Positions 857-35,816 of a DNA stretch of 35,816 nucleotides are shown here, piece by piece. The translations under genes and the position numbers were made by a program. Location of the stretch: positions 1 through 35,816 of the forward strand of contig JALUKQ010000047.1 in the NCBI GenBank assembly GCA_027056485.1, in the 5' to 3' direction. Numbering within the stretch: the first letter of the stretch is position 1; each line of letters opens with the position of its first letter. The notes beneath the pieces are model-generated. The model was not told where the DNA came from, did no database searches, and saw nothing but the letters and a program-made list of their open reading frames with translations. Source of the stretch: Campylobacteraceae bacterium (lineage in GTDB: Bacteria > Campylobacterota > Campylobacteria > Campylobacterales > Sulfurovaceae).

Positions 857-1609
857 TTAAACTGCTTCATCATAAATACTCTCACGCATACCAATAACAT
901 TTTTAATGCCAGAAAAAGCAAGAGTTCTAACCAATCCACTCTCTAGCGTTTTATCATCAGCCATAGCAGATTGACAAGAAGAGAGTACCACACACTCAAC
1001 AGTAGAGCCTACAAAAGTACTGTTTAGCTCATCTTCGTCAATGTGTTTTTTTAAACCTATTTTGTCTTCAAATAAAAAATAGCCTTTTCCATCGGCATAA
1101 GAGCTATGTCCACTCAAAAAGACCATATCAGGCTTTTCTTGTTCAATTAGTTTTTTAAGACTCTTAAAGCGTCCATCATTTGGAACAGTTATCTCTACCA
1201 ACCCATCTTGCCTAAAAGGTAGAAGTGTTTCAAGCACTACCTCTTGCTCTTTTTCTACAGAAAGCCGTGCCTCTTCACCAATATCATCAGGAAGCGTTGA
1301 GAAAAAGAGAACCCTTAAAGGTCGTTTCTCTAAAGGTGTCGAACTGTTAGGAAGATTTGGAATTTTGCGACTCAAAGTAAAGTTTGGATGTTGTGCCAAA
1401 AACCCATAAGTCGGATGGTAAAGCAGTTCCCAAGGAAGCTGTAGCGTTTGTGAGTTGTCACTTTCGATGATGATATTTAAAATCTCTCTTGTTGGCTTAA
1501 GAGAATCTATTTCTAAATTTAAACTCTGCCATAATGCTTGACCTATGGCTTGGGTTGATTGAGTTGTGTTTATGCTGATGTTGGTTGGTGGGGTTATGAT
1601 AAATGACAC
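857..1609 (-). CDS. CHAT-domain (caspase-like) protease fragment
   Basis: 250 residues. The fold is recognisable from the LPWELLYHP motif near residue 59, the His box FLSGHSSY (about 164-171) and the Cys box VVLSSCQSA (about 207-215). These give the His-Cys dyad of CHAT (caspase HetF-associated with TPRs) peptidases, usually cytoplasmic and often in signalling or immune proteins. The start is GTG at 1609, chosen because AGGGA lies 7 bases upstream and a -10 box lies further up. The protein stops right after IGMRESIYDEAV. In intact CHAT domains this D/A motif is followed by roughly 40-70 more residues (F..FY..L..G region), and usually by partner domains. Both catalytic motifs are present, but the C-terminal helices are missing. 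This is either a truncated remnant or a minimal variant; I favour truncation. Confidence 0.75.
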   Translation of the reverse strand: MSFIITPPTNISINTTQSTQAIGQALWQSLNLEIDSLKPTREILNIIIESDNSQTLQLPWELLYHPTYGFLAQHPNFTLSRKIPNLPNSSTPLEKRPLRVLFFSTLPDDIGEEARLSVEKEQEVVLETLLPFRQDGLVEITVPNDGRFKSLKKLIEQEKPDMVFLSGHSSYADGKGYFLFEDKIGLKKHIDEDELNSTFVGSTVECVVLSSCQSAMADDKTLESGLVRTLAFSGIKNVIGMRESIYDEAV

Positions 1610-16979: not shown

Positions 16980-19889
16980 ATGCCACCAATAGCTCGAAAA
17001 CCTCAACAGATATACCTTAACCGTGATATTGATTTTATTATAGAAAACCATATAGAAAACAAAACATCAAAACTTCTTTTTGTACATGGTCAAGGTGGCG
17101 TGGGTAAAAGTACTCTGCTTAAAAAGTTTCTCTCTTATGATGCCGAAGAGATTCCTACAGTGCTGATAAACCTACAAGATAGAAATATCAACAATTTTGT
17201 AGATATTTTACTCGATGAAGATATAACATCGGTAAAACATTGCCCTAGTTTTGAAAAAATCCGTACCATTTTACTCAAAGAGCCAAAACTTTTAAATGCT
17301 ATTATCAAGAGTGATACCGATGTAGTTGAATCACAAATAGAAGAGTATGACAAAGAGTGGGGAGAGTATGCAAAAATAGCAATTGATGGTTTTAAATTTG
17401 GTGCAAAGTTTCTAAAAAATGCTGATGAGAAAAAGAAAAAAGAGTTTTTAAACAATCCAGAGTTTGTTTTGCTCTCTGCATTGACAGAAGATTTTGAAGA
17501 TTATGGACTCTTTATGGTAGATACTTTCGAGAAGATTAAAACCAATGACATCAAATCTAAAATCAACTTTACTGATAGTGGTGAACTCTCTATGCGTCTT
17601 AAAGAGAAACACTATCGTCTAAAAGATTATATTGAGGGCTTGGTCTATCTATTGGTAGGGAGTAGCACCTTTATTATCGCAGGGCGAAACAGTCAAGATG
17701 AACTCAATATGGAAGTTCCTTTGGACTACTGTGATGAGTTGTCGTTAGAGAACTTTTCTATTTCAAATATAAAAGAGCTTTTTTCTATTCATGTCCAAAG
17801 AGACAAAAAACTCTCTATGCCAAGTGACAAACAGATAGAACAGATAGCAGAGCTAACCAATGGTAATCCACTTATTGTAGGGCTTTTCCCAAAAGTAGCC
17901 AAAGAGTATGACTCTTGGGACGAGTTAGATTACGAAGAGATGGAGCGACGCATAAAGACCGATGATGAGTTTGGTCTACTTTACTACATGACCGACAGAG
18001 TGTTGAGTCATTTAGGTGAGTCTAAAGAGGTTTGGAAGTTGGTTATTCCAAGGGTGTTAAACGTAGAGATAGAGAAGCTACTTTTAGATGAAAAGATACT
18101 TAAAGAGCTAATAGAGGTTGGATTAGCCACCAAAGGCACAGGCAGAGACTCAGAACGATACTACCTACACGACGATGTGCATAGAGCCATTGTCGCTTAC
18201 TATGCACGAGAGTTTAAAAATGGCTTTAGCTCTTGGCACGATGCCGAAGTGGTAGCAGAAGTTCATAGGGAGTTGATGGGGTTTTATGAGAACTATACGG
18301 AACTTTATGGAGTTAATAGTACTTTTGAGGGGTGTTATCATAAGATGATGCTGAGAGAGGGGTTTGAGAATGATTTTGAGGTTAGTAGGGAAGAGTTTGC
18401 TTCTTTAACACTTAGTTCTATCAGTTTAAACTATCAGGCAAAATTTCGAGTTTGTAGCTCTTTTGATACTTTGTCTAACTTCCAAATATCTGAACTAATA
18501 AGAATTTGGAAGGAAGAAAAAGATACTTGGACTACTTGGATGAGTCAAAAGTTGTATTCAAGATTAATAAAAGCTTTAAATGAAGGAAAGAGTGACCAAA
18601 TAACAGAAGATATGCCTTTTTTAGAGAGTTTAAAAGAAGAGTTAAAAGATGATTGGTCATACTATTATTTAATTGGGAATGCTTATGCTGAAAAAGGAGA
18701 GTACCACAATGGCATAAAAGCCTATCAAAAAGCAGTAGATATAAATCCTAAAAAAGATGAAGCTTATTATAGTATAGGGAATGCTTATTATGATAAAAGA
18801 GAGTACGACAACGCGATAGAAGCTTATCAAAAAGCTATAGAGATAAATTCTAAAAGAGATGAAGCCTACAATAATAAAGGGAGTGCTTATGATAAAAAAG
18901 AAGAGTATCACAACGCCATAGATGCCTTTCAAAAAGCAGTAGAGATAAATCCTAAAAACGATGAAGCTTATTATAATATGGGGATTGTTTATCGTAAAAA
19001 GGGAGAGTATGACAATGCTATAGATGCTTATAAAAAAGCAGTAGAGATAAATCCTAAAAACGATGAAGCTTATCTTGGAATAAGTAAGATTTATATTGAT
19101 ATTTTAAAAAAAATTGAAAAAGGTATCACTTATGCAAACAAAGCAATCAAAATAAACCCTAATAAAGAAGATTCTTATCATTATATAGGTGTTGGATTAA
19201 CCTCATTAGAAAAATATGAAGAAGCTATCTCTTATTACCGAAAAGCTATAGAGATTAATCCTAATTATTATAATTCTTATCTTAATTTAGGTAATGCTTA
19301 TATTAATTTACATAAATCTAATGAAGCAATAATTGCTAACCAAAAAGCAATAAAAATAAGTTCAAATAGATATGAAGCTTATTCCAATCTTGGTATTCTC
19401 TATATCAATTTAGAAAAATATGAAGAGGGCATTGAGTGTATGGATAAATGTATTAACTTAAATTACAAAACATATGATGTCTATTATGCTTTGGCATTAG
19501 CATATAATGGTTTAAAAAACTATAAACAAGCAATTATTAATTTAATAGAAGCTATACGATTAAATCCTAATCAATATGATAATTATCCAGACCTCTTTGA
19601 ATTCCAACTAACCCAAAACCAACCCTTTGACCAAGCGTTAGAGAAAAAATACATTGAGCTGTTTCAAAATCAAAAAGAGAGCTTTATACAGTATGAAATG
19701 CTAAAGATACTCCAATATATAAGCCATAAACAAGAGGTAAACCTAGAGCAGTGGAAGCAGAAGTATGAGGGTGTTAGTATGGGTGGTTGGAGTTTTGATG
19801 AGTTGGAAGCGTGGATTGATGGGGTTGAGGAGAGTGATTTGAAAGTTAGACTTCGAGAGGCTTTAGAGGGGTTTAAGGGGCATGGGTAA
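16980..19889 (+). CDS. STAND-family ATPase with TPR repeats
   Basis: 969 residues. Residues 37-45 GQGGVGKST are Walker A; LFMVD (177-181) is Walker B; FIIAGR (231-236) is sensor-like; GNPL (295-298) matches the G-x-P motif of AP-ATPase/STAND proteins. A winged-helix region follows (about 345-420, ending YYLHDDVHRAIVAYYAREF). From 558 to about 864 there are nine TPRs of 34-35 residues, then a short helical tail. STAND proteins switch on when the repeat domain senses a ligand, and act in signalling or phage defence. No effector domain is visible at either end, although the Pro-rich start resembles the linker that joins CHAT or other effectors to NB-ARC in fused proteins. Own promoter; flanked by REP-like hairpins. 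Confidence 0.88.
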   Translation: MPPIARKPQQIYLNRDIDFIIENHIENKTSKLLFVHGQGGVGKSTLLKKFLSYDAEEIPTVLINLQDRNINNFVDILLDEDITSVKHCPSFEKIRTILLKEPKLLNAIIKSDTDVVESQIEEYDKEWGEYAKIAIDGFKFGAKFLKNADEKKKKEFLNNPEFVLLSALTEDFEDYGLFMVDTFEKIKTNDIKSKINFTDSGELSMRLKEKHYRLKDYIEGLVYLLVGSSTFIIAGRNSQDELNMEVPLDYCDELSLENFSISNIKELFSIHVQRDKKLSMPSDKQIEQIAELTNGNPLIVGLFPKVAKEYDSWDELDYEEMERRIKTDDEFGLLYYMTDRVLSHLGESKEVWKLVIPRVLNVEIEKLLLDEKILKELIEVGLATKGTGRDSERYYLHDDVHRAIVAYYAREFKNGFSSWHDAEVVAEVHRELMGFYENYTELYGVNSTFEGCYHKMMLREGFENDFEVSREEFASLTLSSISLNYQAKFRVCSSFDTLSNFQISELIRIWKEEKDTWTTWMSQKLYSRLIKALNEGKSDQITEDMPFLESLKEELKDDWSYYYLIGNAYAEKGEYHNGIKAYQKAVDINPKKDEAYYSIGNAYYDKREYDNAIEAYQKAIEINSKRDEAYNNKGSAYDKKEEYHNAIDAFQKAVEINPKNDEAYYNMGIVYRKKGEYDNAIDAYKKAVEINPKNDEAYLGISKIYIDILKKIEKGITYANKAIKINPNKEDSYHYIGVGLTSLEKYEEAISYYRKAIEINPNYYNSYLNLGNAYINLHKSNEAIIANQKAIKISSNRYEAYSNLGILYINLEKYEEGIECMDKCINLNYKTYDVYYALALAYNGLKNYKQAIINLIEAIRLNPNQYDNYPDLFEFQLTQNQPFDQALEKKYIELFQNQKESFIQYEMLKILQYISHKQEVNLEQWKQKYEGVSMGGWSFDELEAWIDGVEESDLKVRLREALEGFKGHG
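18690..19075 (+). repeat. near-identical TPR-coding units (102 bp)
   Basis: The first four TPR units repeat closely at the DNA level. For example GATGAAGCTTATTATA-type segments recur every 102 bases, and the join of units 3-4 and 4-5 shares the AAAGCAGTAGAGATAAATCC stretch. Later units (19080-19570) keep the protein pattern but differ in DNA, so the front units were duplicated or homogenised more recently. Confidence 0.7.
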
Positions 19890-30888: not shown

Positions 30889-31440
30889 ATGTATAAAAAA
30901 ATATTACTTCTATCTTCTGTTTTACTCTTTTCTGCTTGTAGTATTAAAGAGAACTCAAATATTGCACAACTCTTTAAAAAAGATGATATTTATCATATCT
31001 CTTTAATGAACACAAAAAAAGCACAACTTATTGCATCGTTAGAGACAAAAGCTCTTTTAACAGCAACTTACCTCAATCCAGTTTTTGACCATATTGAGTG
31101 TAATGATGCTTGTCACTCTAATCCAAATGAAGAGTTTTTCTTTATAGGGGTCTATATTACTGATAGTGAAGAACATACTTTTAATAAAAAAGGTTATCAT
31201 TTGAGACTTAATGGAAAAAAACCTTTAGGAATTCAAAAACTTGAAAAAGATGACCCTTTACGTTACCAAATGCCCATGATAAATAACTGGAGTACTTACT
31301 ATAAAGTGAAGTTTCCTAAGGTTAAAGGAAATGATTTAAATCTTACTTTCGAAAACGATCGGTTTGGGAAGGATACGCTAACGTATTCAAAAAAGATGAA
31401 ACCTTTGTTTGACTCCTTGAAAGAAGATTTAGGTAGATAA
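30889..31440 (+). CDS. lipoprotein of unknown function
   Basis: 183 residues. MYKKILLLSSVLLFSAC is a lipoprotein signal with lipidated Cys17. The mature part has two close Cys (HIECNDACH, about 66-74) and ends in a Lys-rich helix. AAAGG lies about 7 bases before the ATG. A lipoprotein gene stands at this place between mobB and slt in Campylobacter. Its last 98 bases overlap, tail to tail, the end of the transglycosylase gene. Function unknown; outer- or inner-membrane attachment inferred. Confidence 0.8.
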   Translation: MYKKILLLSSVLLFSACSIKENSNIAQLFKKDDIYHISLMNTKKAQLIASLETKALLTATYLNPVFDHIECNDACHSNPNEEFFFIGVYITDSEEHTFNKKGYHLRLNGKKPLGIQKLEKDDPLRYQMPMINNWSTYYKVKFPKVKGNDLNLTFENDRFGKDTLTYSKKMKPLFDSLKEDLGR

Positions 31441-32938
31441 TATAGTTGGTTAAAACTTTTTTCCCATACTCTTTAGACTCTTCATAGTCTACAAGTTCCA
31501 TACTTAGGTATGGTTCATACTTTCCTTCTTTAAATAGGTTTTTCTTTCTTAAGGTCTTTCTCGTAAATCCTATGCCACCATTGTATGCATAGGCTACAAA
31601 AAGTGGGTGGTAGAGCCAAGAGTTTAAGTAGTCCATGTGTTGGTTGGCATAACTTATAGCAACATAAGGGTTGAACATCTCGCTAAAGTCTAATTTTTTT
31701 CTACGCTCTTTTGCTAAGTGTCTTATAAGAAAAGGCATAATCTGCATCATACCTAAGGCATATGAGGGGGAGACTGAAGCAGGAACAAAACGACTCTCTT
31801 GTCGTGCTATGGCATAAAGCATAGCAACACGCTCTTTAGAGTACCCCCACATAGCTTCACGATATGGCATGGGGTAGTAAGGAACGGTGTAATTTGTAGA
31901 TTTTTCTTTTAGGTAAGTATAAATGCCTTCTGTTTTGTGACTTTTGTAGTTTTCTGCCAAATTAGCTATCTGATTTGGATTCTCTTTCATTTTGAGTTTT
32001 ATCTTTTCCCAATTAATAGGATTTTCAATATCAAAATCTTTTATAGTATCATAACCTAGATTTGGTGTAACTACGTTTGGATATGGCTCTTTTAAAATAT
32101 CTCTAGCACTTAACGTATAAATATTGACCTGATTACTTTTTATTAATTTTTGTAGATATTTTTTATTATCACTGACGAGATATAACCAAAAATCTACTTG
32201 GTCATACTGGTTTTGATACACTGTTTTCGTTCGAGCTATTTTTAAAAATTTAGTAGCATCTTTTAATCTATTAAACTCTACAGCATTTATAGCAAGTAGA
32301 AAATTTGACTTAAACGTTAGATTATTATCTCCTATCTCTATAAGTGATGCTTTCAGATTTTGTAAATCATAGTTGGTTACTATTTTGTGAATTGAGGTAT
32401 TAAACTGTTTTTCTTGAATAAGTTTAGCCAATTGCTCTTTAGTAAATGGCTTGTTAAAATGAGTTTTTCTATACTTATTACCTACATTATTAAAGACATA
32501 AGCTTGAGTACTTCCTGGAAAGTAAGCCAATGTTTTAAACGGCTCATCATCACTAAGAATATGAAGTGTCTCAGAGTATTTATTCTGTTTTAGAATTTTT
32601 TTATAGAGTTTTTTTAAACTCTTTTTGGACTTCTTAGCAGCTGTTGCAGGATATATAATATAGTTATTAGGGTCTCTTTTCTTTTTTGCTTTAGTTGAAG
32701 TATTTTTAGGGATGTATCCAACTTTTTTACGAATAGCTTTTTTTAGTTTTGAACTTTTACGTTTTGACCAAATATATGCTGTTACTGCCTCTTTCTTAGT
32801 AGTTTTTTTATCACCTATAAAACGCCAAATATAATAATCTTTAGCATAAGAGCTAGGCATCACTTCTATCTCTTTTAAGTTAGGAGTTTTAGCCCAAAGA
32901 GCTAAACCTAAAAGTAAAAAGAGTAGAAGTTGTTTCAT
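31343..32938 (-). CDS. soluble-type lytic murein transglycosylase
   Basis: 531 residues. Signal peptide 1-16 (MKQLLLFLLLGLALWA), a basic region and a helical superhelix, then the C-terminal SLT domain: AIARQESRFVPASVSPSYAL with catalytic Glu381, GMMQIMPF, NPYVAISYANQHMDYL and AYAYNGG. It cleaves peptidoglycan glycan strands to 1,6-anhydromuropeptides in the periplasm. It starts within the end of the YggT gene (1-base overlap). The final about 22 residues (after NYIIYLNLL) lie over the opposite lipoprotein gene and may be an extension gained by loss of an earlier stop. Confidence 0.93.
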   Translation of the reverse strand: MKQLLLFLLLGLALWAKTPNLKEIEVMPSSYAKDYYIWRFIGDKKTTKKEAVTAYIWSKRKSSKLKKAIRKKVGYIPKNTSTKAKKKRDPNNYIIYPATAAKKSKKSLKKLYKKILKQNKYSETLHILSDDEPFKTLAYFPGSTQAYVFNNVGNKYRKTHFNKPFTKEQLAKLIQEKQFNTSIHKIVTNYDLQNLKASLIEIGDNNLTFKSNFLLAINAVEFNRLKDATKFLKIARTKTVYQNQYDQVDFWLYLVSDNKKYLQKLIKSNQVNIYTLSARDILKEPYPNVVTPNLGYDTIKDFDIENPINWEKIKLKMKENPNQIANLAENYKSHKTEGIYTYLKEKSTNYTVPYYPMPYREAMWGYSKERVAMLYAIARQESRFVPASVSPSYALGMMQIMPFLIRHLAKERRKKLDFSEMFNPYVAISYANQHMDYLNSWLYHPLFVAYAYNGGIGFTRKTLRKKNLFKEGKYEPYLSMELVDYEESKEYGKKVLTNYIIYLNLLSRSQTKVSSFLNTLAYPSQTDRFRK

Positions 32939-33459
32939 TAGAATGCCATGGTTATTTGTTGTAATAGACCAACAAGAGCTTGCAGACCAAAAATGAGAAC
33001 AATAGGAGATAAATCAATACCACCTATTACTAAAAAAGGAAGTTTCTCACGAATAAATCTTAAAGGTGGATTTGTTAAACGGTTAATGACTTGAACAATA
33101 GGATTATACGGGTCAACTTGTACAAAAGATAGTACAGCAGATATAATAATGAGTATGATATATGAATATACAAGAGAACTAATTATTCCTATAAAAGCAA
33201 CAAATATATTACCTGTGAGTATGCTACTTAGAAGTTGTAACCCAATAATAAGAACTAAAGGTGAAAGGTCAAGACCTCCTACAACAGTAAAAGGAAACTT
33301 TTGACGAACAAATCTAAAAGCTGGTTCAGTGATACGGTTAATTATCTCCACAGCAGGTTGACGAGGGTCAACTTGAAGCAAAGAGAGAACAGCAGAGATG
33401 ATAATAATCCAAATATATATTTGAATAACGAGTAGTATAGGTTGTAATATAAAGTTCAT
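32938..33459 (-). CDS. YggT-family membrane protein, two repeats
   Basis: 173 residues made of two similar halves (about 1-85 and 86-173), each with a membrane helix, the motif VDPxxP..x.INR.T.P..RF.R.K.PF, a GGxDLSP box, and a second membrane helix. This is the usual double-YggT form. The function is not settled; roles in membrane organisation, division or osmotic tolerance are reported for relatives. It links gltX and slt with 1-base overlaps on both sides. Confidence 0.9.
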   Translation of the reverse strand: MNFILQPILLVIQIYIWIIIISAVLSLLQVDPRQPAVEIINRITEPAFRFVRQKFPFTVVGGLDLSPLVLIIGLQLLSSILTGNIFVAFIGIISSLVYSYIILIIISAVLSFVQVDPYNPIVQVINRLTNPPLRFIREKLPFLVIGGIDLSPIVLIFGLQALVGLLQQITMAF

Positions 33460-34706
33460 TATGATGCGACCTCCAATATATAAGATTTAATGTATGGATA
33501 GATTTCACTTAACTCAGGTCCATCACCTGTATTAGTTAAGATTTGACGAAGTACTATTAAGATATCTTTCTCTTCTAGTCCACTGTTAGTCATGATATGT
33601 TCTTTAAATGTATCATAATTTTCAAAATAGGGTGCTTGGTTAATAACTTTTTCTAAAATATTCATCTGCTCACCCCATTTTCCAGAGAAATCTTTAGGTG
33701 AAAATATAGGGCGAATTTTTGTCTCTAACTCATTGATGGTGCTACACTCTTGCAGATAAACCTTTGCAAGTTTTCCAATATCTGCATCGGCAAAACCAAA
33801 AAGTGTAGAGAGCTTTTTGTCATCTATCATTTTTAGATGCTCACGGTTAATGGAGCGTAGTTGTTCTAAGTCAAAGGTAACGTCTGATTTTGATATGCTG
33901 TTCAAATCAAACCACTCAATAGCTTCAGGAAGTGTAAATATCTCTTTTGGAGCATTTGGATTTCCTAAAACCAATAAATAATTTAAAATAGCATCAGGAA
34001 TAAATCCATCTTGAAATAGCTCTTTAACGGATATATTATTAGTTATAGTTGGTATATGAGCATACTCTGTAGTATTTTCATACCCTAAAAGATTTTTTAT
34101 ATGTATCTGTTTGAGTGTACCTAAAAGATGTTCCTCTTCACGTATAACTAAGCTTATATTACTCATCATATCATCAGCTGCAATAGCAAAGTTGGCTGTG
34201 GGTGTGGTATCTGCTTTTAAAATAACAAAAGAGCCTATCTCTTTAGCTGTAGCTATTAAATTACCTTTTATTAAGTCACTATAGCTTATGTTACTCTTAG
34301 GCTCTTTAACTCGAATTACAAATTTTTCAGCAGATTTTTTAAGTTCATTATACTCTTCAGGCTTAAGATTCTCGCACCCTGCTGAACAAGAAGAGGCTAA
34401 CTCTTTATTCTCATTGATACATTTACATACAAATGCTTTTTCATCTTTTAGTAGACGAAGTGCTAGTGTTTGATGCAGATTCAGATGTTCACTCTGATGA
34501 AAGACAGCATCATGTTTAAGTGCAAACTTTTCTAAAATCATCATGATTTCTGTATCCTTACCAGTAATATTTTGCTCTTTATCACCATCTTCTATACGTA
34601 TTAAAAATGGCTCACCTTTTTGTTGTGCAACCAAGTAGTTAAATATGGCAACTCTAAGGTTAGCTATGTGCATGTCACCAGTTGGTGACGGGGCAAATCG
34701 AAGCAT
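33459..34706 (-). CDS. gltX: glutamyl-tRNA synthetase homologue lacking KMSKS
   Basis: 415 residues, against about 430-470 for normal GluRS. Clear family match: LRFAPSPTGDMHIANLR (2-18), LIRIEDGDKE, a zinc-type CKC...CSAGC (94-111), YAHIPTI, FIPDAILNYLLVLGNP and an anticodon-binding C-terminal domain. Several catalytic parts are changed. HIGH reads HIAN. The GEDH-x-SNTP segment reads EEEHLLGTLKQ. After HIPTIT (217-222) the chain goes straight to NNISVKELF, so about ten residues holding KMSKR are gone. AGGAGA precedes the ATG. Order gltX-yggT-slt as in Campylobacter, where two gltX genes exist. It may be inactive, decaying or reused; GluQ-RS is unlikely because that form lacks the C-terminal domain. 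Confidence 0.85.
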   Translation of the reverse strand: MLRFAPSPTGDMHIANLRVAIFNYLVAQQKGEPFLIRIEDGDKEQNITGKDTEIMMILEKFALKHDAVFHQSEHLNLHQTLALRLLKDEKAFVCKCINENKELASSCSAGCENLKPEEYNELKKSAEKFVIRVKEPKSNISYSDLIKGNLIATAKEIGSFVILKADTTPTANFAIAADDMMSNISLVIREEEHLLGTLKQIHIKNLLGYENTTEYAHIPTITNNISVKELFQDGFIPDAILNYLLVLGNPNAPKEIFTLPEAIEWFDLNSISKSDVTFDLEQLRSINREHLKMIDDKKLSTLFGFADADIGKLAKVYLQECSTINELETKIRPIFSPKDFSGKWGEQMNILEKVINQAPYFENYDTFKEHIMTNSGLEEKDILIVLRQILTNTGDGPELSEIYPYIKSYILEVAS

Positions 34707-34732
34707 TCTTTCTCCTGAAAATTATTAGGCGT

Positions 34733-34738
34733 ATTATA
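34733..34738 (-). promoter_or_regulatory. -10 box of gltX
   Basis: TATAAT on the minus strand, 26 bases before the ATG at 34706, with AGGAGA (34711-34716) between. Confidence 0.55.
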
Positions 34739-34813
34739 GGGGATTTTTGTTGAAATTGGTATAAAATATTACATAACAAAACAATAAGCACTAATTGGCT
34801 AAAATACACCCCT

Positions 34814-34819
34814 TATAAT
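34814..34819 (+). promoter_or_regulatory. -10 box of glnS
   Basis: TATAAT, 121 bases before the glnS ATG, so the mRNA would have a leader of about 115 nt that contains the hairpin element. Confidence 0.5.
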
Positions 34820-34840
34820 AGTCTTCTTGAAAAACTATTT

Positions 34841-34891
34841 GGAATCGGAGACTTTAGTCCTGAATAAGACGAGGCTAAAGCCATCGGTTCC
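34841..34891 (+). repeat. 51-nt hairpin in the glnS leader
   Basis: Near-complete inverted repeat: stem of about 22 positions, 18 paired counting G-U pairs, with a 7-base loop. The core ACTTTAG / CTAAAG is perfect and the foot is GGAA / TTCC. GGAGACT (34847-34853) can instead pair with AGTCTCC (34913-34919) next to the glnS ribosome-binding site (AAAAGG, 34925-34930), giving two competing folds. It may be a mobile palindrome, a regulatory leader, or both. Confidence 0.6.
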
Positions 34892-34940
34892 TAGTTTTGC
34901 ACGATTTCTAATAGTCTCCAAATCAAAAGGTTTAATAATA

Positions 34941-35816
34941 ATGGAAAATAAGAGCAAAGATTTTTTACGTAGAATAGTTGAAGAGGATTTAAATGCAGGT
35001 AAATACCAAGAGGTAGTCACAAGGTTTCCACCTGAGCCAAATGGTTTTCCACATATTGGTCACGCCAAATCTATCGCTATCAATTTTGGAATTGCCAAAG
35101 ATTATCAAGGTCACTGTAACCTAAGAATGGATGACACCAACCCCACAACTGAAGATACACAATATGTTGAAGCTCTTAAAGATGCAGTTCAGTGGCTAGG
35201 CTTTGAGTGGGATAAAAATGTACGTTATACCTCTGATTACTTTCCTAAACTTTACGCTTATGCAATAGAACTTATTAAAATGGGTAAAGCGTATGTCGAC
35301 AGTACAAGTGAAGAGGAGATGCGTGAACTCCGTGGAACAGTGATCCAAGCAGGAAAAAGAAGCAAATATGCTGATAGAACGGTAGAAGAGAATTTAGAAC
35401 TTTTTGAGCGAATGAAAAATGGCGAGTTTAAAGATGGAGAACATGTCTTAAGAGCCAAAATTGACATGTCTGCTTCTAATATGAAAATGCGTGACCCACT
35501 CCTTTACCGAATCCGTCATGCACACCATTTTAGAGCAGGAGATGAGTGGGCTATTTATCCTATGTATGACTTTGCTCACTGTCTCTCTGATTATATTGAA
35601 GGGGTTTCTCACTCTATCTGTACATTAGAGTTTGAAAACAACCGTGACATCTATAATTGGGTCTTAGATACGTTAGGATTAAAGCCTACAAGACCTTATC
35701 AGCATGAGTTTGCAAGACTTGGTATAAACTATACTGTTATGAGTAAAAGAAAGCTTTTAGAGTTGGTAGAGGGTGGTCAAGTGAATGGTTGGGACGACCC
35801 AAGAATGCCAACTATC
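34941..35816 (+). CDS. glnS: glutaminyl-tRNA synthetase, 5' part
   Basis: First 292 residues; the window ends inside the gene, and the usual length is about 550. GlnRS features: [20 protein letters not shown] with an intact [31 protein letters not shown], [21 protein letters not shown] [32 protein letters not shown], and VMSKRKL (KMSKS). It charges tRNA-Gln directly with glutamine. Most Campylobacterota that I know lack GlnRS and make Gln-tRNA from Glu-tRNA with GatCAB, so this gene was probably gained by transfer. It is divergent from the degenerate gltX. Confidence 0.95.

Follow-up and report, generated by a model that had tools for sequence, protein, structure and literature searches.

Eroded GluRS2 homologues in GlnRS-bearing Campylobacterales as probable recurrent pseudo-synthetases

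The window analyzed here is a stretch of 35,816 nucleotides, contig JALUKQ010000047.1 (G000:C47) of the Campylobacteraceae bacterium assembly GCA_027056485.1, and the gene of concern, which we call gltX2*, lies close to its end. This gene encodes a homologue of the glutamyl-tRNA synthetase (GluRS) GluRS2 in a frame of 415 codons with no internal stop, and has for a neighbor glnS, the gene for glutaminyl-tRNA synthetase (GlnRS). Our best reading of gltX2*, drawn from sequence comparison, is that its product would be one of a recurrent series of GlnRS-linked pseudo-synthetases with a selected role at the level of the protein.

The gltX2* locus

A sequence-only reading of the window had pointed to an altered HIGH-type motif, a change to EEEH in the RGEDH region and a gap at KMSKS, all within an otherwise open frame, and alignment with intact GluRS2 confirms each of these (Table 1). 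The loop deletion falls between N224 and I225, with its junction at about 34034/34035, and the protein reads PTANFA where intact relatives have PTYNFA. Of the marks of an active GluRS, the HIGH-type motif is thus replaced by HIAN and the KMSKS motif is gone together with its loop. A sequencing error or frameshift is an unlikely cause of the missing loop, because the same loop is absent, in an open frame, from three relatives (L038 of genome G021, L074 and L081; 82–85% identical).

Against the TIGR00464 (GltX) profile the protein scores 291.2 bits, passing the cut-off of 289.95 with a match that spans nearly its whole length; automatic annotation would therefore probably call it "glutamate--tRNA ligase", which could mislead metabolic models and essentiality predictions. 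The AlphaFold model has a predicted local distance difference test (pLDDT) value of 92.5, or 91.3 when the alignment is restricted to eroded relatives, and the best matches in the PDB are GluRS structures. Profile, trees and the kept gltX2-yggT position place gltX2* in the GluRS2 orthologue group of Campylobacterales. Assignment to GluQRS (YadB, TIGR03838) was rejected on a score of 140 bits against a cut-off of 276.7 and on the C-terminal helical domains present in the predicted model.

The glnS start codon (ATG at 34941) is separated from that of gltX2* by 234 bases. The sequence-only reading had taken this GlnRS to be intact, which holds as far as HIGH and MSKR are concerned; the window and contig stop at 35816, after about 290 residues, and bar a full check. 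A near relative (G021) carries a full-length GlnRS (L005). The host genome (2.48 Mb in 187 contigs, 87% complete) was also searched for another gltX and for gatCAB, and has a second GluRS at G000:C37:3-668, with KLSKRDG present and its HIGH region cut off by the contig start, as well as a GatB at G000:C43.

On its other side gltX2* is followed by yggT and slt. The window YggT appears to consist of two tandem YggT units, and relatives' frames at this place are about 87–98 aa or 173–176 aa long. Elsewhere in the window there are, by the look of the sequence only, a CHAT-like frame of 250 aa (857–1609, minus strand) and a TPR-repeat ATPase of 969 aa (16980–19889, plus strand).

Table 1. Features of the gltX2* locus, in window coordinates
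Feature	Position	Strand	Basis or remark
gltX2* (415 aa GluRS2 homologue lacking catalytic motifs)	33459..34706	-	open frame, profile score, predicted fold
HIAN replacing HIGH-type motif HIGN	34659..34670	-	residues 13-16, alignment
Probable metal site CKC...C...C	34374..34427	-	CxC kept, Tyr to Cys, shortened loop; metal binding putative
REEEH replacing RGEDH	34128..34142	-	residues 189-193, alignment
KMSKS-loop deletion junction (TNN/IS)	34029..34043	-	12-column gap relative to intact GluRS2
Former anticodon-loop cluster, intact LKGK..F..PLR to GLEEKDILIVLR	33546..33581	-	conservation counts
GGAGG, likely yggT ribosome-binding site, within last gltX2* codons	33470..33474	-	counts of Shine-Dalgarno (SD)-like motifs
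yggT (named by eye), 173 aa	32938..33459	-	overlaps gltX2* stop by one base (TAATG)
slt-like gene for a lytic transglycosylase (named by eye)	31343..32938	-	next in row gltX2-yggT-slt
glnS (GlnRS), divergent from gltX2*	34941..35816	+	HIGH and MSKR present; cut by end of window/contig

GlnRS and the loss of GluRS2 motifs

The available text of PMC9976931 describes the GluRS2 of Helicobacter pylori as specific for tRNAGln and part of the indirect pathway. We take gltX2* to be of this type in fold and domain order, and the gltX2-yggT row recurs in 68/72 intact relatives; gltX2* differs in having no HIGH, RGEDH, KMSKS or anticodon lysines, in being strongly acidic and in occurring with GlnRS. The co-occurrence itself has been described, GluRS2 and GlnRS having been found together in 6 of 10 epsilon-proteobacterial genomes (Dasgupta and Basu, 2014, PMC3927822). 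In the accessible part of that paper, epsilon-proteobacterial GlnRS is said to carry a YqeY domain and to be patchy within genera, and is proposed to be possibly non-functional; the GluRS2 HIGH-type motif is given as HxGN, and neither KMSKS nor loss of GluRS2 motifs is mentioned in that part.

We surveyed both enzymes with PF00749 searches of 40 relatives plus the window's own genome, of 34 genomes of its genus and of 160 genomes of the order, its own included in each of the latter two; the order genomes other than its own were at least 95% complete, and the order sample was searched a second time using aligned eroded proteins. Eighty relatives were fetched with their titles, mostly metagenome-assembled genomes called Sulfurovum, Campylobacteraceae or Epsilonproteobacteria. 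GlnRS is present in at least 51 order-sample genomes besides that of the window. Among the matches listed, 42 of 51 GlnRS-bearing order genomes have a GluRS2 frame, which is eroded in 41 and not in G146; in 19 of these 42 the two genes are no more than 2 kb apart, GlnRS being upstream and co-oriented in 13 and divergent in 6. Two members of family f9, G032 and G086 (listed as 97–100% complete), have GlnRS and no GluRS of either type that we could find, probably through assembly gaps, yet the gap is common to two relatives.

In the first survey, 57 of 58 GlnRS-bearing genomes (42 of the order sample and 16 of the window's genus, its own among them) lacked HIGH and/or KMSKS in GluRS2, both having been lost in 48. 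On the other hand, 51 of 52 genomes without detected GlnRS keep both motifs, the exception being G128, in which GluRS2 is eroded; counted among the 51 is G068, with both motifs present in a frameshifted GluRS2. Of the remaining 108 order-sample genomes, 50 contributed GluRS2 readings, and absence of GlnRS was judged mostly from match counts, with some genomes checked directly (G076, G089 and G151 by match counts alone). No GlnRS was found in G045 (82% complete), which has an eroded GluRS2, or in G048, which has an intact one. When pooled, eroded copies number 77 with GlnRS and 7 without GlnRS found, and intact copies 65 without GlnRS found and 9 with it; these counts include L087 and L131, recognized only through their adjoining GlnRS, and leave out 14 further eroded named loci with adjoining GlnRS. 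The rule that links GluRS2 erosion to GlnRS is strong, not absolute. As a separate observation, the frameshifted GluRS2 of G068 (L194) comes from a single-contig genome without GlnRS, with both motifs readable, and may be a sequencing error.

The GlnRS sequences present the opposite picture: all 97 full-length proteins have [ML]SKR, and HIGH is present at 111 of 113 loci, the exceptions being one masked locus (L052) and one cut locus (L106). Relative to the published account as available to us, then, the co-occurrence is the same and the sequences point the other way, to kept GlnRS motifs and lost GluRS2 motifs, which would reverse the inference in PMC3927822 as to which of the two enzymes works. 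One GlnRS (L254), from genome G218 with its GluRS2 motifs kept, is split at about codon 423, either by a sequencing error or because GlnRS is there being lost instead.

A careful tree of 43 GluRS2 proteins, from which the HIGH, RGEDH, KMSKS and anticodon-loop columns had been excluded, requires 13 changes between intact and eroded states (12–13 over the bootstrap range), of which starred branches force 9, and a quick tree of 108 rows requires 15, with 10 forced. Both trees contradict a single inherited inactivation; eroded GluRS2 arose at least nine times, on the assumption that a motif once lost does not come back. The proposal of the sequence-only reading that GlnRS arrival goes with loss of the GluRS2 catalytic motifs is thus upheld by 57/58 as against 51/52 genomes and by the nine forced changes. 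The quick GlnRS tree has 16 family changes where the least would be 7, and families that cohere in the careful GluRS2 tree do not do so in it; GlnRS therefore moves horizontally between families of Campylobacterales.

What is lost and what is kept

Conservation was weighted in a set that left out proteins shorter than 370 aa, identical copies, L194 and those that had lost HIGH only. The weighted fractions for eroded lineages are low for the HIGH-type motif (H kept in 0.39, G in 0.31), for RGEDH (G200 in 0.08, D202 in 0.17) and for the anticodon-loop lysines (K400 in 0.20; K402 in 0.16, being mostly Glu), and the KMSKS-loop positions are gapped in 0.62–0.73. Other positions are well kept, among them R3 (0.96), E39 (0.70), D40 (0.97), F61 (1.00), the DDM residues (0.94–0.98), G255 (1.00), N308 (0.98) and Y425 (0.98).

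The cluster K390/K400/G401/K402, which we take to be anticodon-contact positions, is changed in 77/81 GlnRS-bearing rows as against 4/50 rows without GlnRS. Among the 81, loop and catalytic positions are both changed in 70, the loop alone in 7, catalytic positions alone in 3 (L180, L054 and L084) and neither in 1. Loss of the anticodon loop first is accordingly a tendency and fails as a rule, given the three catalytic-only rows and the 4/50. The usual changes (Lys to Glu, Asn to Asp, Gly to Glu) are possible by single transitions and are as expected under relaxed constraint; we do not claim positive selection. Mean net charge is -16.6 for eroded and -4.6 for intact proteins (isoelectric point 5.3 vs 6.5), and is lower for eroded copies in all nine genera with both kinds. 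These cluster and charge values tell against the earlier suggestion that gltX2* has been keeping its tRNA-binding parts, and a role as a tRNA-binding factor with preserved anticodon parts is disfavored by loop conservation, charge and cluster counts.

Erosion was scaled on 96 columns with almost no variation among 43 genomes that lack GlnRS and lie outside the window's family. Median deviations are 1 (0–4, n=15) for family members without GlnRS, 6 (1–8, n=9) for copies that coexist with GlnRS and retain both motifs (L101, L104, L108, L109, L113, L114, L131, L086 and L087), and 32 (9–55, n=57) for eroded copies. At least one of K390, K400, G401, K402 and F405 is lost in 9/9 coexisting copies and in 1/15 rows without GlnRS (G012, 74% complete), although the coexisting set was picked for kept motifs and hence leans to loop-first loss by construction. 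Because the nine are only 68–89% identical to each other, their coexistence with GlnRS is not one recent event.

A CxC..C site is found in 80 of 88 eroded proteins, and in 22 of the 80 a Cys has taken the Tyr/His place, as it has in none of 71 intact proteins; the site may bind a metal.

Across 29 eroded pairs the ratio of nonsynonymous to synonymous divergence (dN/dS) has a median of 0.21 and a range of 0.08–0.36, at dS up to 1.8, with the loop missing in both members of 28. The median for 17 intact pairs, three with saturated dS having been excluded, is 0.07. When the window gene was simulated under neutrality, the averages were 0.72–1.00 and the lowest single run gave 0.55; simulations without stop rejection gave 4–6 stops per lineage at a dS between paired runs of 0.21–0.26; no internal stop was flagged in the eroded copies listed in the genus and order samples. 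Pooled by domain, eroded dN/dS is 0.16–0.44, and 0.16–0.32 in the domains upstream of residue 412. Relaxation relative to intact copies is least in the first half of the anticodon domain (1.9 times) and in the stem-contact body (2.3), and greatest in the anticodon loop (5.4). In gltX2*, catalytic residues are thus lost with the predicted fold kept, and purifying selection has followed motif loss, as a pseudo-synthetase would have it.

A retained body and its rivals

We consider it probable, at roughly 0.6, that gltX2* is the old tRNAGln-specific GluRS2 after an acquired GlnRS took its tRNA job, and that the body of the protein keeps a selected role. GlnRS would be acquired horizontally and take over tRNAGln; GluRS2 would then cease to read and charge this tRNA. 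Where GlnRS occurs, GluRS2 has usually lost the anticodon-loop lysines and HIGH, RGEDH and KMSKS, in many cases together with the entire loop that bears KMSKS; the rest of it is predicted to fold and stays under purifying selection. From its motifs, the gltX2* product should be unable to make Glu-AMP or charge tRNAGln, and GlnRS would therefore be the working enzyme. The retained role would use the protein body and the cysteine site, and neither ATP nor the anticodon. The sequence-only reading had allowed for "another role", which is supported in general terms. Our first guess at a partner is the GatCAB/AspRS transamidation machinery, and our second is GlnRS itself. GatB is present in 159/160 genomes, and AsnRS did not exceed the cut-off in any of 27 genomes looked at (7/14 in a control), which presumably leaves Asn-tRNA formation still dependent on GatCAB.

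Several findings weigh against such a role. GluRS2 can be dispensed with, there being none in 9 of the 51 listed GlnRS-bearing order genomes (G070, G029, G071, G032, G059, G073, G086, G145 and G183); in G183 it is cleanly gone, glnS being followed directly by yggT. Its C-terminal part has been lost in G162 (278 aa) and G067 (313 aa), its acceptor insert in G044, and the cysteine site in 8/88 eroded proteins. The dN/dS of eroded copies is about three times that of intact ones, and the divergence among the nine coexisting copies indicates that coexistence can last. The link to GlnRS also has its failures. Seven eroded genomes have no GlnRS found, and a missing contig has to be assumed for G128 (96% complete), G202, G211 and G194. 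A blind prediction of GlnRS status in 38 named genomes was weaker than the first survey (27/38 right, Fisher p 0.022), with GlnRS present in 14/19 eroded loci and absent in 13/19 intact ones; it failed for five eroded loci without GlnRS found (L085, L097, L103, L121 and L141; no GluRS1 match was found in the genomes of L097 and L121 either) and for six with GlnRS present and motifs kept (L101, L104, L108, L109, L113 and L114).

The main rival to a retained protein function is coupling to yggT, in which the ribosome-binding site of yggT sits in the 3' end of gltX2* and translation of gltX2* feeds into that of yggT and slt; the protein would have no function, and selection would keep it only foldable and harmless. 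Directly after all 88 eroded genes comes yggT, overlapping 87 of them (by first-ATG start), as compared with 68 of 72 intact genes with a visible neighbor (4 have another) and overlap in 62 of the 68. An SD-like motif lies in the last 24 nt of 86/88 eroded and 63/73 intact genes, and synonymous divergence in the last six codons is low, at 0.09. The shortened gltX2 of G162 still overlaps yggT, and in G183 it is glnS, instead of GluRS2, that adjoins yggT. However, coupling alone allows missense changes and in-frame core deletions, at odds with the constraint seen well away from the 3' end, in the domains before residue 412, and it does not account for a cysteine site that is mostly kept and sometimes rebuilt. 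We therefore regard it as unlikely, if still a serious contender.

Appreciably less probable is that GluRS2 is a relic on its way out, caught before frameshifts build up. The graded erosion, from 1–8 deviations in coexisting to 9–55 in eroded copies, would fit slow decay, as would total loss in nine listed genomes, the truncations and the threefold higher dN/dS. It is disfavored by dN/dS values that lie well under neutrality at high dS in pairs already without the loop, and by the lack of flagged stops where simulation gave several per lineage. The earlier view of a gene "now decaying" does not hold as the whole story, since open frames persist and decay is seen only in places. A GluRS2 that no longer reads the anticodon might instead activate glutamate for another acceptor (compare GluQRS and queuosine-tRNAAsp). 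In keeping with this, R3 and E39 remain in eroded lineages, the nine coexisting copies have HIGH and KMSKS, and 7 of 8 coexisting copies checked have lost a loop lysine or glycine with every tested catalytic position kept. GluQRS is an active enzyme without an anticodon domain, and gltX2* shares its GluRS-like catalytic fold; unlike it, gltX2* has an anticodon domain in the predicted model and no motifs. No ATP activation is to be expected of proteins that lack both HIGH and KMSKS, the window protein among them, and the latter falls far short of the GluQRS cut-off, so we give a changed substrate hardly any credence.

Among known systems, the nearest parallel to a retained, non-aminoacylating GluRS2 is SLIMP, which the available text of PMC10570016 describes as a SerRS-like (seryl-tRNA synthetase-like) subunit of animal mitochondrial SerRS. 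In both, the synthetase fold (predicted for gltX2*) and the protein are retained and the catalytic pocket is lost, but SLIMP takes part in tRNA recognition with a known partner and gltX2* is losing its anticodon residues. HisZ, a HisRS (histidyl-tRNA synthetase) paralogue that regulates HisG according to the accessible part of PMC9437257, is likewise a bacterial synthetase homologue without adenylation activity, as the motifs suggest for gltX2*; unlike HisZ, gltX2* would be the enzyme that once served its tRNA, and its inactivation would have happened in situ and more than once. We found no report in the open-licence literature of the conversion of GluRS2 to a pseudo-synthetase after GlnRS arrival.

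The redundancy that an acquired GlnRS brings to the indirect glutamine route is usually observed only in its final state. In Campylobacterales, intact, partly eroded, fully eroded and lost GluRS2 can be set side by side inside individual families and genera, over what appear to be at least nine origins. If the retained protein functions, GluRS2 would have a second job not yet described in the open-licence literature. Rather more tentatively, for we doubt it somewhat more than we believe it, GluRS2 of this order may always have had a second, non-aminoacylating role borne by its body, exposed by each arrival of GlnRS. If so, the eroded GluRS2s would amount to naturally occurring separation-of-function mutants, and intact GluRS2 in their relatives would be expected to have this hidden role as well.

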